Assembly: GCF_021502675.1 (NCBI RefSeq)
Contig: NZ_JAKFHA010000029.1
Coordinates: 1-53,833, forward strand
Direction: 5' to 3'
Source of the DNA: Yinghuangia soli
GTDB taxonomy: Bacteria > Actinomycetota > Actinomycetes > Streptomycetales > Streptomycetaceae
DNA: 53,833 nucleotides
In this document: positions 29,331 through 45,765 of the stretch, in pieces
How the letters are laid out: each line of letters opens with the position of its first letter
Numbering within the stretch: position 1 is the first letter of the stretch
Program-made: the position numbers and the translations under genes
Notes under the pieces: generated by a model
The model's input: the letters and a program-made list of their open reading frames with translations, nothing else
Databases searched by the model: none
Told to the model about the DNA's origin: nothing

Positions 29331-30789
29331 CGCGGTCGGAAGCCGGGGCGGCGGCCGGGGCCGGGGACGAGGTCGCGGACGGGGCGGCGGGGAGTGCGGT
29401 GAGGTGCCGGATCGGCGACCGGAACACCGGGACGAACGCCACTGCCATGAACACCGCCCCGGCCCACAACGCCGCCCGGGGCGAGGCGAGTTCGCCGACC
29501 GCGCCGGAGACCGCGGCACCCACCGCGACCGCGCCGGTCAGGACGAAGTGGAACGTCGCGTTCATCCGGCCGAGCAGGGCGTCCGGGGTACGCGCCTGCC
29601 GCAGGCTCACGCCCAGGACGTTGTCGACGCCCATCCGCGCGGTGGTCAGGAACCACCCCAGGACGGCTGCCGCCATCGCGGGACCCGTGCCGACCAGCGG
29701 GATCAGCAGCGCGGCGGGCGCCAGGACCAGGCCGGCCAGCCGTATCGTGCGGCCGAACCCGAGCCGCCGGGCGACCGGCCGCGCCGCGCGGGCGCCGGCC
29801 AGCACCCCGGCCCCGCCGACCGCCAGATAGAGCCCCAAAGCGCCTGCGGAAAGCCCGAGTTCGTCGGTGAACACGAGCGGCATCATGGTGTTGGCGAACT
29901 GCGCGCCGAAGTTCGTCAGCATCGCGGTGAGGACCAGCGCCCGCAGTTCGGGGCTGCCGAAGACGTGGCGCATGCCCTCGGCGACGTCGGTGCGGAGCCG
30001 CGGGCGGGCCGGCTTCACGGCGGGCGCATCTGCCGCGGAGCCGCCGGTTGCGGGGGAGTCCTGCACAGTGGAGCCCTGCGCGGGGGAGTCCGGCGCCGGG
30101 CCGCCCGCAGTCGGATCGGCCGCGCGGCCGTACCGCATGCGCGCCAACTGCCAGGCGGAGCCCAGGTATCCGGCCACCGTGCAGAGCGCCGCCGCCGGGG
30201 CGCCGAAGAGCTGGACGACGCCGCCGCCCGCGCCGCGGCCGCCGATGCTGCCTGCCGCCTGCAGCGTCACCAGGGCCGTATTGGCCTGCACCAGGCCGGC
30301 GCGGCCGACCACCGACGGCAGTACCGATTGCGCGGCGATGTTGAAGAACACCGTCGCCGCGCCGCTGAGCAGCACGACCGCGAACAGCTGCCACAGCGTC
30401 AGGACCCCGCACCACCACGCGATCGGCACCGAGGCGAACAGCGCCGCGCGCACCACGTCGGCCGCGATCAGCACCCCGCGGTGCGGCAGCCGGTCCACCC
30501 ATGCCCCGGCCGGCAGGCCGATGAGCAGGAACGCGGCGGTGTCCAACGCTGCCAAGGCACCGACCTGGCCTGGTCCCGCGTCCAGCGCGAGCACCGCGAT
30601 GAGCGGTACGGCGACGGCGGCGATGTTCGCACCGGCCAGACTGAACGCGCTCGCGGCGAACAATGTGCGGAAGTCGCGTACCCGCCACGGCGAGGAGCCG
30701 GCCGCATCAACAGCGGCGGCGGGCCGGGGATCGGGACGGGGACCGGGTTCGGGGGCGCCGGGACGCGTCCCGGCGGAGGGCTGGAGCAT
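29305..30789 (-). CDS. MFS transporter (MFS_3 / enterobactin-exporter type)
   Basis: This 494-residue protein has about 12 membrane segments with a Pro/Ala-rich cytoplasmic insertion in the central loop (about residues 220-265) and a disordered C-terminus. Segments such as VRDFRTLFAASAFSLAGANI and MGVDNVLGVSLRQARTPDAL are typical of the MFS_3 group of antibiotic or siderophore exporters. It is divergent from the DUF5937 regulator at 30844 (54 bp apart), which probably represses it. It is convergent with, and overlaps, DUF2000. Confidence 0.86.
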   Translation of the reverse strand: MLQPSAGTRPGAPEPGPRPDPRPAAAVDAAGSSPWRVRDFRTLFAASAFSLAGANIAAVAVPLIAVLALDAGPGQVGALAALDTAAFLLIGLPAGAWVDRLPHRGVLIAADVVRAALFASVPIAWWCGVLTLWQLFAVVLLSGAATVFFNIAAQSVLPSVVGRAGLVQANTALVTLQAAGSIGGRGAGGGVVQLFGAPAAALCTVAGYLGSAWQLARMRYGRAADPTAGGPAPDSPAQGSTVQDSPATGGSAADAPAVKPARPRLRTDVAEGMRHVFGSPELRALVLTAMLTNFGAQFANTMMPLVFTDELGLSAGALGLYLAVGGAGVLAGARAARPVARRLGFGRTIRLAGLVLAPAALLIPLVGTGPAMAAAVLGWFLTTARMGVDNVLGVSLRQARTPDALLGRMNATFHFVLTGAVAVGAAVSGAVGELASPRAALWAGAVFMAVAFVPVFRSPIRHLTALPAAPSATSSPAPAAAPASDRVRDASERP

Positions 30790-42514: not shown

Positions 42515-42848
42515 CGAGTACGTCCTTCCGGGAGGAGCAGGACAGAACTGCTGCGGCGGGGCCGCACGGAACCGGACGATCCTGTTCCGCATAGCTCCGA
42601 GGCCGCGTCGATCACGCTTGCGGGCGCACGGGCATGCCTAGCTGACGCTGCATCAGATGTCTACGGGGTACGGCTGGGTAACGCCTGATCCGGTCGCATA
42701 TTCGAAGCCGGTTGCGCAAAGTGGACGTCCTGCTTGACAGAAAGCGGAATTCTCCGGAACTCCGCCCCGGTACGTGTCGGATTTCTCCAATCCCCGGCCC
42801 CGCCGCCGGTGCAACAGTGGGTGGCTCCGCCGACCGCAGGGGGACCGG
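42515..42848. other. 334-bp divergent regulatory region of the SBP and PCP operons
   Basis: The region is gene-free. It contains the promoter and palindrome at 42734-42765 (listed separately). The left half holds the SBP leader with GGAAGGAC. No remnant of an adenylation domain or other NRPS sequence is visible on either strand. Confidence 0.5.
42734..42765 (+). promoter_or_regulatory. Candidate promoter and operator of the PCP-P450-C operon
   Basis: TTGACA (42734-42739) is a perfect -35. Immediately after it lies a near-palindrome GCGGAATTC-TCCG-GAACTCCGC (42744-42765, 8 of 9 arm matches), occupying the expected spacer and -10 region. No obvious -10 hexamer is present, suggesting activator dependence or a repressor footprint. 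GGAAC (42756-42760) with GTC at 42776-42778 could alternatively be an ECF promoter, though the 15-nt spacer is short. Confidence 0.5.
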
Positions 42849-43190
42849 ATGTCGTCACCGGAGACGCTGCACGCACGCGAAGCGGCACGCGAGGACGCGG
42901 GACTCAGCACCGCGTACGCCGCCCCGCGCACCGAACTGGAAGAACGCCTGGTCCAACTGTGGGAGGCCGCTCTTCAGTTCGGCCCCGTCGGGATCGCCGA
43001 CGACTTCTTCGAACTGGGCGGCGACTCGATGCTCGCCGCGCAGGTCCAACTGGACGTCGACCTGGAGTTCGGGGTGGAGATCTCGGCCGCCGCGCTGTTC
43101 CTCTCGCCGACCGTCGCGACCCTGGCCGAGGCGGTGGAGGACGCGGTCAAGACCGGGCGTACCGAGGCCGGCGGCCGGACCGGGCCGTGA
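42849..43190 (+). CDS. Free-standing peptidyl carrier protein
   Basis: This 113-residue protein has a single carrier domain at about residues 25-100. Its phosphopantetheine attachment site is Ser60 in FFELGGDSMLAAQVQ, the sequence context typical of NRPS thiolation domains. AGGGGGA precedes the ATG. The next gene (P450) begins inside its stop codon (GTGA). It should carry an aminoacyl or acyl group on a 4'-phosphopantetheine arm. No adenylation domain or phosphopantetheinyl transferase is nearby, so loading must occur in trans. Confidence 0.9.
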   Translation: MSSPETLHAREAAREDAGLSTAYAAPRTELEERLVQLWEAALQFGPVGIADDFFELGGDSMLAAQVQLDVDLEFGVEISAAALFLSPTVATLAEAVEDAVKTGRTEAGGRTGP

Positions 43191-44446
43191 CCCCGCCCCG
43201 GGCGCCGGACCTCGCCGCGCCCGGCTGCGCGGTGCCCGACCTCACCGATCCCGACCTGTACGCGGACGGCCACCCGCTCGCCCTGTGGCGCACGATGCGG
43301 GCCCGTACCCCGCTGCACTGGCAGCCGGTGGCCCCGGACCTGGGCTTCTGGGCCGCCACCCGGTACGCCGACGTCGAACGCGTGCTGCGCGACCACGAGG
43401 CGTTCAGCTCCGAGCACGGCACCCTGCTCAGCCTGCTGGGCCGCCGCGACCCCGCGGCCGGGCACCAGCTCGCGGCCACCGACCCGCCCCGGCACGGCCG
43501 GCTCCGCGCGCCCGTCCACCAGGCGCTGCGGGCCGGGACCGTGGACGCGCACCGCACCGAAGTGCGGGCCGGCATCCGGGCGCTGCTGCCGTACGGCACC
43601 GAGCCGTTCGACTTCGCCGCGGCCATGCGCGCCCTCCCGCTGGTCCTGCTCGGGGTGCTGATGGGACTGCCCGAGGAGGACCGCCCGCACCTGATCCACC
43701 TGGCATTCATGGCCTCCGCCGAGGACGACCCCGACTACCGGTTGCCGGAAGGCCCGCGGGCGACGCTGCAGCGGGCGCACCGCGAACTCTTCGCCTACTT
43801 CGCCGACCTGGTCCGCGACCGCGTCCGGCGGCCGCGCGACGACCTGGTCGGAGTCCTGCTCGCCCAGCGCCGCGACGGCGAGCGGGTACCGCCGTCCGCG
43901 GTGGTCTCCAACTGCTACAGCCTGCTGCTCGGCGCCGTCGTGTCGCTCTCGCTGGTGCCCGCCGCGGCGGTCCGCGAACTCGGCCGCGACGGCGGCTTCG
44001 CCCGCTGGGCGGCCCGGCCCGACCTGCTCGACAGCGGTATCGAGGAAGCCCTGCGCTGGGCCACCCCCGGCCGGTACTTCATGCGCACCGCCAAACGGCC
44101 GGTGCACGTGGCCGGCACCGAAGTCGCCGAAGGGCAGGCCGTCCTCGCGTTCCTGGCCGCGGCCAACCGCGACGAACGGGCCTTCGCCGAGCCCGACGTG
44201 TTCGACGTCGCCCGGCGGCCCAACCGGCACCTCGCCTTCGGCGCCGGCCACCACTACTGCGTCGGGTCCAATATGGCCCGCCTCACCCTGCGGCTGCTCT
44301 TCGAGGAACTGTTCGCGATGTACGCCTCGCTCGACGTCGTGGGCGAACCGGTCCGCGTGCGGTCGATGTTCCTGGGCGGCTACAAGGCCCTGCCCGTCCG
44401 CGGGCGGCCCCGCCCCAAGTCCCAGACACGTGGAGGACATCCGTGA
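43187..44446 (+). CDS. Cytochrome P450 with atypical I-helix
   Basis: This 419-residue soluble bacterial P450 has DPPRHGRLRAPV (C-helix), the ExxR motif as E287-ALR290 and the heme loop FGAGHHYCVG with Cys358. In the I-helix, where most P450s have A/G-G-x-D/E-T, it reads LLLGAVVSLSL (about 246-256), with neither the acid nor the threonine. This suggests altered oxygen activation or substrate assistance, as in some P450s acting on carrier-bound substrates. The GTG start overlaps the carrier protein stop and the end overlaps the condensation gene start, so the three are coupled. The natural guess is oxidation of the carrier-bound substrate. Confidence 0.9.
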   Translation: MTPPRAPDLAAPGCAVPDLTDPDLYADGHPLALWRTMRARTPLHWQPVAPDLGFWAATRYADVERVLRDHEAFSSEHGTLLSLLGRRDPAAGHQLAATDPPRHGRLRAPVHQALRAGTVDAHRTEVRAGIRALLPYGTEPFDFAAAMRALPLVLLGVLMGLPEEDRPHLIHLAFMASAEDDPDYRLPEGPRATLQRAHRELFAYFADLVRDRVRRPRDDLVGVLLAQRRDGERVPPSAVVSNCYSLLLGAVVSLSLVPAAAVRELGRDGGFARWAARPDLLDSGIEEALRWATPGRYFMRTAKRPVHVAGTEVAEGQAVLAFLAAANRDERAFAEPDVFDVARRPNRHLAFGAGHHYCVGSNMARLTLRLLFEELFAMYASLDVVGEPVRVRSMFLGGYKALPVRGRPRPKSQTRGGHP

Positions 44447-45765
44447 CGGCCCCGTCCCGCGAGGAAGAGACCTGCGCCCTGTCGTACGCGCAGGAACTGC
44501 TGCACCTGGTCGACCTGGTCAACCCCGGCAGCGTGTTCGACCCGGACTTCATCGTGCGCGCCGCATTCCGGGTCCGCGGCCCGGTCGACACCGGCGTGCT
44601 GCAGGCGGCACTCGACGACGTGGTGGCCCGGCACGGCGCGCTGCGCACCGAGATCGTCCGCGACGGGTCCGACGGCTCCGGCACCGAGCCCTACCAGCGG
44701 ATCCTTCCGCCGATGCCGGCACGGCTGGTGGTCGAGAGCCTGCCGGCGGGCAGCGACCCCGACGCATTCGTGGCCCGGGTCGCCGGACAGGGCCACGACT
44801 GGCGGACGCCGCCCCTGCTGTGGGCGTACCTCGGCCGGTACCCGGACGACGAACCCGGCGGCGCCGACCCGGTGCTCGTGCTGGTCGCCCACCACATCGC
44901 GGCCGACGCCTGGTCGCTCGGCGTACTGGCCCGCGACCTGGTCGCCGCCTACACCGCCCGCACGCGCGGCGAACCGCCGCTTGCCGCCGACGTCATGCAG
45001 TACACCGAGATCGCCGCCGACGACCGCTGCGCCAAGACCCAGGAGCGGTACGCCGCATCCCTGGAGTTCTGGCGCCCGCACCTGGCCGGCACCGCGGGCC
45101 GCGGCCTGCCCGCGCAGTACCCCGACGCGCCGCCGGGACCGACCGCGGTACACCGCTTCGTGGTCCCCGACGAGCTCGCCGCGGCGGTCGGCAAGGCGGC
45201 CCGGCGGGCCCGCACGACACCGTTCACCCTGATGCTCACCGCGTTCACCCAGGGCGTCCTTCCCGACCGGGACACCGTGGTGCCGGTCGTCACCGCCGGG
45301 CGGCTGCCCAGCGAATGGAACAGCGTCGGATTCCTCATGAACATGCTGGCCATCCGGATCGACCGGGCCGACGGCCCCGGCCTCGGCGAGCTGCGCACCC
45401 GCATCGACGCCGCACTGCGCCAGGCGTACGCGCACGAGACCGGACTGCTGGTGATCCTGCAGGCCGTCCCCGAGATGTTCGCCTCCCTGACCACGCGCGA
45501 CCGGGTGCCGCCCGCGTTCCAGCTCATCCCGCCCACCCCGGTCCGCCCGGCCGCCGACCCCGCGCTCGACCTGGCGCCGCTCGGCGAGGAGGGCCAGCCT
45601 GCGCTGGCGATCCCGCTGCCGTTCCTGTGGTCGATGCGCTCGGACGCCGGACCGCTGCGCGGCTATGTGACATATGACTCGAATCTCTTCGACACGGCGT
45701 GGATGACCGCCAAAACCCAGGCCTTCCTGCAGGTCCTCGCCCGACTTGCCGACCCGGCGGGCTGA
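44443..45765 (+). CDS. Free-standing NRPS condensation-domain protein
   Basis: This 440-residue protein spans a full condensation domain. The active-site motif HHxxxDxW is intact as H150-HIAADAW157, and an early core motif is LSYAQELLHLVDLVN. It starts at GTG 44443 within the P450 stop (GTGA). It could form an amide or ester between the carrier-bound acyl group and a soluble nucleophile, or with a second carrier protein elsewhere. The intact HHxxxD argues against a purely docking role like the X domain that recruits P450s in glycopeptide assembly. Subtype (LCL, DCL, starter) cannot be set from motifs alone. Confidence 0.88.
   Translation: MTAPSREEETCALSYAQELLHLVDLVNPGSVFDPDFIVRAAFRVRGPVDTGVLQAALDDVVARHGALRTEIVRDGSDGSGTEPYQRILPPMPARLVVESLPAGSDPDAFVARVAGQGHDWRTPPLLWAYLGRYPDDEPGGADPVLVLVAHHIAADAWSLGVLARDLVAAYTARTRGEPPLAADVMQYTEIAADDRCAKTQERYAASLEFWRPHLAGTAGRGLPAQYPDAPPGPTAVHRFVVPDELAAAVGKAARRARTTPFTLMLTAFTQGVLPDRDTVVPVVTAGRLPSEWNSVGFLMNMLAIRIDRADGPGLGELRTRIDAALRQAYAHETGLLVILQAVPEMFASLTTRDRVPPAFQLIPPTPVRPAADPALDLAPLGEEGQPALAIPLPFLWSMRSDAGPLRGYVTYDSNLFDTAWMTAKTQAFLQVLARLADPAG

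Follow-up and report, generated by a model that had tools for sequence, protein, structure and literature searches.

A carrier protein, cytochrome P450 and condensation enzyme operon of Yinghuangia soli as a probable part of a four-gene cassette for beta-hydroxyhistidine

In nikkomycin biosynthesis, NikP1 combines adenylation (A) and peptidyl carrier protein (PCP) domains and NikP2 is a thioesterase (TE); SgcC5, the free-standing condensation (C) enzyme of the C-1027 pathway, has a substrate of the beta-tyrosine type and an acceptor that is not carrier-bound; and P450sky (CYP163B3), from skyllamycin biosynthesis, acts within a modular nonribosomal peptide synthetase (NRPS). According to excerpts of the literature, the cytochrome P450 (P450) NikQ hydroxylates carrier-bound histidine at the beta carbon and refuses free histidine (PMC10099666), a second source also giving carrier-bound histidine as its substrate (PMC3943440); P450sky is a hydroxylase of aminoacyl-PCP (PMC5238595), and SgcC5 is a free enzyme that makes both ester and amide bonds (PMC10212144). 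In the polyoxypeptin A cluster, as described in part of PMC3943440, the trio PlyQ-PlyR-PlyS (PCP-P450-TE) places a free PCP beside a NikQ-like P450 without an A domain, and a free A enzyme (PlyC) is found on another contig of that draft genome. Here we analyze a trio of genes for a PCP, a P450 and a free-standing C enzyme, located in a stretch of 53,833 nucleotides of Yinghuangia soli (RefSeq assembly GCF_021502675.1, contig NZ_JAKFHA010000029.1, positions 1 to 53,833, forward strand), hereafter the window. The trio probably represents three quarters of a four-gene NRPS cassette made of discrete enzymes, the fourth member of which may be encoded at another locus of the same genome.

The trio shares with the NikP1/NikQ/NikP2 system a PCP that carries the phosphopantetheine serine and adjoins the P450, but it differs in having A and PCP as separate proteins, a free C enzyme for the TE and the A gene at another locus; this is a comparison of layout, and not a direct one of sequences. 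No TE of the NikP1/NikQ type was found on the window contig (C22), and the genome had only two matches at E 1e-10 to the TE of the cassette-type locus L060, with 34% and 37% identity, on contigs C23 and C47. Unlike the trio, PlyQ-PlyR-PlyS has a TE instead of a C enzyme, has leucine as its proposed substrate and forms part of a large NRPS-polyketide synthase cluster (according to the same part of PMC3943440). In the database record of C-1027, SgcC5 is accompanied by an adjoining free PCP and by AMP-binding genes nearby; it belongs to the same clade as the window C enzyme but is only 35% identical to it, and no P450 gene lies between PCP and C. P450sky provides the closest natural solved structure to the window P450 both by sequence and by fold, although their identity is about 33%.

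The initial annotation of this DNA had described separate genes for a PCP, a P450 and an intact C enzyme, joined by two GTGA overlaps, and both points were borne out: the translations contain no internal stops in any of the three frames, Pfam assignments and catalytic residues are as expected (Table 1), and stop/start overlaps of four bases join PCP to P450 (43187-43190) and P450 to C (44443-44446). With self-built profiles for A, PCP, C, P450, MbtH and TE (each from a single seed, E 1e-3), only the trio was recovered in the window, in agreement with the claim that nothing else there is NRPS-like, and no match was obtained on the remainder of contig C22 (104,822 bases). The absence of an adenylation domain, also claimed, is true of the locus and of C22, but not of the genome, where an A gene of the cognate type is present on contig C34, nor of the relatives with a free C enzyme, all six of which have one. 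A relic of an A gene right behind the window C gene was considered and discarded, since only 36 bases separate the latter from the next gene and the profile search found no A on C22. The possibility that the trio is a fragment of a modular NRPS was also rejected, as no modular remains were found on C22 and the unit is conserved elsewhere.

To define the relatives of the trio, a collection of species genomes was scanned with a P450 alignment, the best 80 of 153 loci were kept and all 80 were classified by the genes flanking the P450. A fused A-PCP before the P450 and a TE after it were the most common arrangement (43 loci), followed by loci without PCP and with TE (11), loci with a free PCP before and with free C and free A genes after (6) and loci with a free PCP and a TE (5); the remaining 15 were spread over nine smaller classes. 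The six free-C loci belong to Streptomyces fumanus (L117), S. silaceus (L120), Micromonospora craterilacus (L119), Micromonosporaceae bacterium KJ-029 (L121) and two metagenome-assembled genomes of Hamadaea (L123, L124). The initial annotation had proposed a search for the three-gene order in other genomes, with the prospect that it might not be conserved. It is conserved: the order recurs in 6 of the 80 loci, which is more than chance, and in each of them the next gene after C encodes a free A enzyme (that of L124 reaching the contig end). All six loci allow a -3 stop/start overlap at the PCP/P450 and P450/C joints, with other starts within a few bases also possible in L117, L119 and L121, and the A start lies at -3 (L117, L119, L121), 0 (L123, L124) or +2 (L120) relative to the C stop. 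This spacing indicates that loci of the free-C type descend from a tightly coupled PCP-P450-C-A operon and, given that a free A gene comes next in all six relatives, the window trio looks like a rearranged four-gene cassette. Identities between the window proteins and those of the six cassettes were 55-66% for the carrier domain of the PCP, 57-63% for the P450 and, for C, 47-54% in four cassettes and 37-38% in the two from Hamadaea. Related layouts include PCP-P450-A-TE in Kitasatospora aureofaciens ATCC 10762 (L118) and in genome G136 (L061), the same order with PCP and P450 fused in one frame (L122), and a locus of Actinoplanes (L131) where the cassette parts are present in a different order. 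A contig scan of the same type with the C protein alone as query found no relative.

When the A enzyme of L060 was used as query against the genome of Y. soli, a single match of 59% identity was obtained at C34:13392-14672, the runner-up reaching 36%. This C34 enzyme shares 49-56% identity with ten further cassette-type A enzymes, and the next among 40 targets shows 37%. Matches to cassette-type A at E <= 1e-70 are present in 4 of 394 genomes of the family (that of the window, G076, G136 and G095), and at that threshold both other genomes of the genus lack one. In a tree of 22 rows, the 11 cassette-type A enzymes formed one clade with support 97/90, down from 100/100 because a near relative, the G095 enzyme, had been added; the latter falls just outside (100/99). 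The C34 enzyme is sister to those of S. fumanus and S. silaceus (99/96, or 99/97 without the G095 row). The same position was found for the window C enzyme (support 98) and, in a tree of 32 rows, for the window P450 together with a copy from Embleya (91/94), within a single clade of 12 cassette-type P450s (100/98). It is mainly this agreement between the trees that leads us to regard the gene on C34 as the member that the cassette has lost. In the congener G001 the genes flanking A are kept in the same order, but the interval between them is occupied by two different open frames and lacks an A gene; A either arrived at the C34 site in the lineage of the window or was lost in G001.

The specificity code of the C34 enzyme points to histidine as the proposed substrate. 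Nine letters of the code were read, using motif anchors that we take to be those of GrsA, and the tenth (K) was supplied by the script. The code DSALIAEVW is present in C34 A and in L117, L118, L120 and L122, and DSA[LH][IV]AEVW covers the other six rows, so that by its sequence the C34 enzyme would qualify as the histidine-specific A enzyme of a NikP1/NikQ-type cassette. In part of a survey of 2051 A domains, DSALIAEVWK is given as a histidine code that is able to take the beta-hydroxylated form (PMC12283262).

The phylogeny of C domains, which had been suggested as a way to assign the subtype, places the window enzyme in the SgcC5 clade of stand-alone condensation enzymes. For this purpose a set of 167 C domains was reduced to 96 with a 75% identity cutoff, and all 27 free and 40 of the 69 modular domains were used (67 rows). 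Sixteen stand-alone rows, including window C and SgcC5, formed one clade with a Shimodaira-Hasegawa-like approximate likelihood ratio support of 100 (a quick tree with no bootstrap), split into nine with SgcC5 (99) and seven with window C (90); the other 11 free rows, which include the second C enzyme of L131, fall outside. SgcC5 is also the best solved relative by sequence (3e-49) and the top Foldseek match of the window C model (template-modeling (TM) score 0.81; mean predicted local distance difference test (pLDDT) value of the model 89.5). The motif HHxxxDx14Y, taken from part of PMC10051162, extends in the window enzyme from H150 to Y170; its tyrosine does not discriminate, because it is invariant in a 17-row alignment that also contains modular C domains. 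No second copy of window C was detected in the 394 family genomes, with four candidates scored in each, and the best-scoring other protein showed 37% identity (E 6.7e-53). As a TE occupies the position of C, after the P450, in 59 of the 80 loci, we read C as a release step in which a free acceptor takes the place of water.

As for the P450, the entry of P450sky came first among natural proteins in a sequence search of PDB, behind two entries of reconstructed CYP125, and in the fold search with the model (pLDDT 85.3) the P450sky-PCP complex 4pxh was the first natural protein listed (TM 0.86). The window P450 departs from 19 relatives at just one of the 58 positions that are invariant among them (57 kept); as a yardstick, when each of these relatives is omitted in turn, it retains 58 of 58-63. 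The closest P450 of all, with 64% identity, is the copy of Embleya sp. NBC_00896 (L055:15007-16182, in a 3.1-Mb replicon), which stands alone: no PCP, C or A gene is present within the 31 kb examined, and the replicon has no cassette-type A (best match 36%). With nine of the 58 invariant positions changed and 49 kept, the Embleya gene is probably decaying.

Taken together, these results lead us to propose, with a probability of about 0.6, that the trio supplies three of the four members of a discrete-enzyme cassette in which histidine is loaded, beta-hydroxylated and transferred. Judging from its code and clade, the stand-alone C34 A enzyme would activate L-histidine and load it on the free PCP; the P450, to judge by the clade to which it belongs, would hydroxylate the beta carbon of the PCP-bound histidine; and the SgcC5-type C enzyme would then transfer the beta-hydroxyhistidyl group off the PCP and onto a small acceptor with an amine or alcohol function, with formation of an amide or an ester. 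The sequence of events put forward in the initial annotation, with loading in trans, oxidation on the free PCP and transfer by the free C enzyme in one compact unit, fits the relatives, the presence of C34 A and the clade of each enzyme.

Several observations weigh against this proposal. Between the trio and the nearer end of C22 there are 42.8 kb, and between A and an end of C34 there are 13.1 kb, so that, assembly being right, at least about 56 kb separate them, and the neighbors of A (a GMC oxidoreductase, an amidohydrolase and LtrA) are unlike pathway parts. The terminal branch of the C34 enzyme is long (0.5), and the top raw identity of this enzyme is to L123 and not to its sisters in the tree. 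In G095 a free A gene with the same nine-letter histidine code, 53% identical to C34 A (L206, 9782-11344, minus strand), is located outside any such cassette, between modular NRPS genes, a P450 gene (33% identity to that of the window) and a PCP-TE gene; code and kinship alone therefore do not prove the partnership of C34 A. With respect to C, the cassette enzymes of L119 (9218-10513) and L121 (9236-10510) have HRVAVD, with HR and not HH, and a second C enzyme beside the cassette in some relatives (L123/L124, L119/L121, L131) speaks against a release step. Of the 110 positions at which the other six cassette C enzymes all agree, window C retains 92, a looser conservation than that of the P450 and one for which there is no yardstick. 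Identity values do not place the Hamadaea C enzymes any nearer than outside enzymes (29-41% in the search of 394 genomes, up to 36% in another list), and they are grouped by the tree only. Finally, no acceptor-making gene common to the flanks of L117, L120, L119/L121 and L123 was seen among the genes listed, which come from heuristic calls.

The second C enzyme in those relatives could mean that C joins beta-hydroxyhistidine to a second substrate, carrier-bound or acyl-coenzyme A, giving a dipeptide or an N-acylated product as a step of a larger pathway encoded elsewhere. Three further C domains are encoded in the genome of Y. soli, on contigs C12 and C47, and the G095 enzyme with the same code does sit in a larger NRPS cluster. 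However, the nearest relatives, L117 and L120, have a single C and no modular NRPS within 17 kb, none is present on C22 either, and window C groups with SgcC5, a free-standing ester- and amide-forming enzyme (PMC10212144, in part); we therefore consider this explanation unlikely, if worth keeping in mind. A disintegrating relic, where rearrangement broke the cassette, A was left at C34 and the trio is no longer productive, would account for the location of A and trio on different contigs, and could be related to the two open frames that G001 has at the A site, to the lack of an A match at E 1e-70 in the other two genomes of the genus and to the isolated sister P450 of Embleya with its nine lost positions. 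All four genes are nevertheless open frames, the trio keeps its catalytic residues and both overlaps, the window P450 is conserved at all but one of the invariant positions, and in all nine gene-by-relative comparisons (with three relatives) differences are most frequent at third codon positions and least frequent at second ones, which makes decay of the trio a doubtful explanation.

The initial annotation had also drawn an analogy with X domains, which recruit P450s (PMC8949500, in part), and C might by that analogy serve as a platform for recruiting the P450 to the PCP rather than as a catalyst. The C and P450 genes are indeed adjacent in all six free-C relatives, and the HR replacing HH in L119 and L121 would be compatible with such a function. 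But HHxxxD is intact in the window enzyme, L117, L120, L123 and L124, and PCP-P450-TE and PCP-P450-A-TE loci have no C at that place. In P450s that partner X domains, the F helix begins with PRDD (PMC5238595, in part); in the window P450 this motif is found at 216-219, between model helices 190-214 and 220-226, that is, after the putative F helix as we name the helices, and seven of eight aligned relatives have other letters at this site, the Embleya copy being the one that also has PRDD. The analogy thus did not hold for this enzyme: with HHIAAD unaltered and PRDD apparently misplaced in the model, an X-domain role was rejected, and a platform function appears very improbable. The preferred reading remains that of a cassette for loading, beta-hydroxylation and transfer of histidine.

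The features of the locus are listed in Table 1. Upstream of the trio there is a divergent gene for a solute-binding protein, and the gene that follows it codes for a protein of the sodium/calcium exchanger family (ChaA-like). When the window genes from position 30000 on were searched in the other genomes of the genus, ChaA was the only one matched near ChaA of G001, and in G018 ChaA was accompanied by one weak match (33%, 210 residues); with so little matching, no empty site of the trio could be read.

Table 1. Positions and sequence features of the trio genes in the window.
Feature	Position	Strand	Characteristics
Possible ribosome-binding site (purine-rich stretch 5' of the PCP start codon)	42838-42845	+	Read by eye
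PCP gene	42849-43190	+	113 aa; Pfam PP-binding 3.1e-12; Ser60
Cytochrome P450 gene, predicted histidyl-PCP beta-hydroxylase	43187-44446	+	419 aa; Pfam p450 4e-16; Cys358
Free-standing condensation enzyme (C) gene, SgcC5 clade	44443-45765	+	440 aa; Pfam Condensation 1.3e-30; HHIAAD 150-155; Tyr170

Some additional observations were made around the related loci. Near the HRVAVD-bearing C gene, a second C gene is found on the opposite strand, at a distance of about 3.4 kb in L119. In Hamadaea (L123:5051-6136) a gene for a reductase-like protein (NAD_binding_4) and a further C gene precede the cassette, and in S. fumanus (L117:3900-7202) a gene for a LanB-type lantibiotic dehydratase is located directly upstream of it, in divergent orientation. 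The PCP-P450-A-TE loci L118, L061 (G136) and L122 contain an IMP dehydrogenase-like gene (checked with Pfam in L060, which appears to be the same locus as L118, with homologues in L061 and L122), and L118 and L122 have in common a gene that we took by eye for a threonine aldolase. Based on these two genes, we suggest that the product of L118, L061 and L122 may derive from cleavage of beta-hydroxyhistidine and inhibit IMP dehydrogenase, the IMP dehydrogenase-like gene then serving for self-protection.

PCP-P450-TE trios without A (PlyQ-PlyR-PlyS, in part of PMC3943440) and a free PCP with a free C enzyme (C-1027) are already known. No named pathway with the order PCP-P450-C-A and a histidine code, or with its split over two loci, was found among the open-access literature matches listed, a search that left subscription literature mostly uncovered. 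The parts are thus of known kinds, and it is their combination with the histidine code, and the split into two loci, that is apparently new within the open-access literature.

A speculative extension, to which we give little credence, is that the four enzymes constitute a portable toolkit, independent of assembly lines, that decorates different host scaffolds with beta-hydroxyhistidine and works in Y. soli even though it is split over two loci. Equally doubtful is the example that could be offered of such a scaffold, a modified peptide in S. fumanus, where the LanB-type dehydratase gene adjoins the cassette.

The cassette predicts that a small set of separate enzymes would make and transfer beta-hydroxyhistidine without an assembly line and, these being four separate proteins of modest size, the chemistry can be tested step by step. 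Beyond this case, when an NRPS fragment seems to lack A, its A enzyme can be encoded in another part of the genome, where matching trees and the specificity code make it possible to find it; a search of gene neighborhoods alone would miss a pair such as the trio and its A enzyme.

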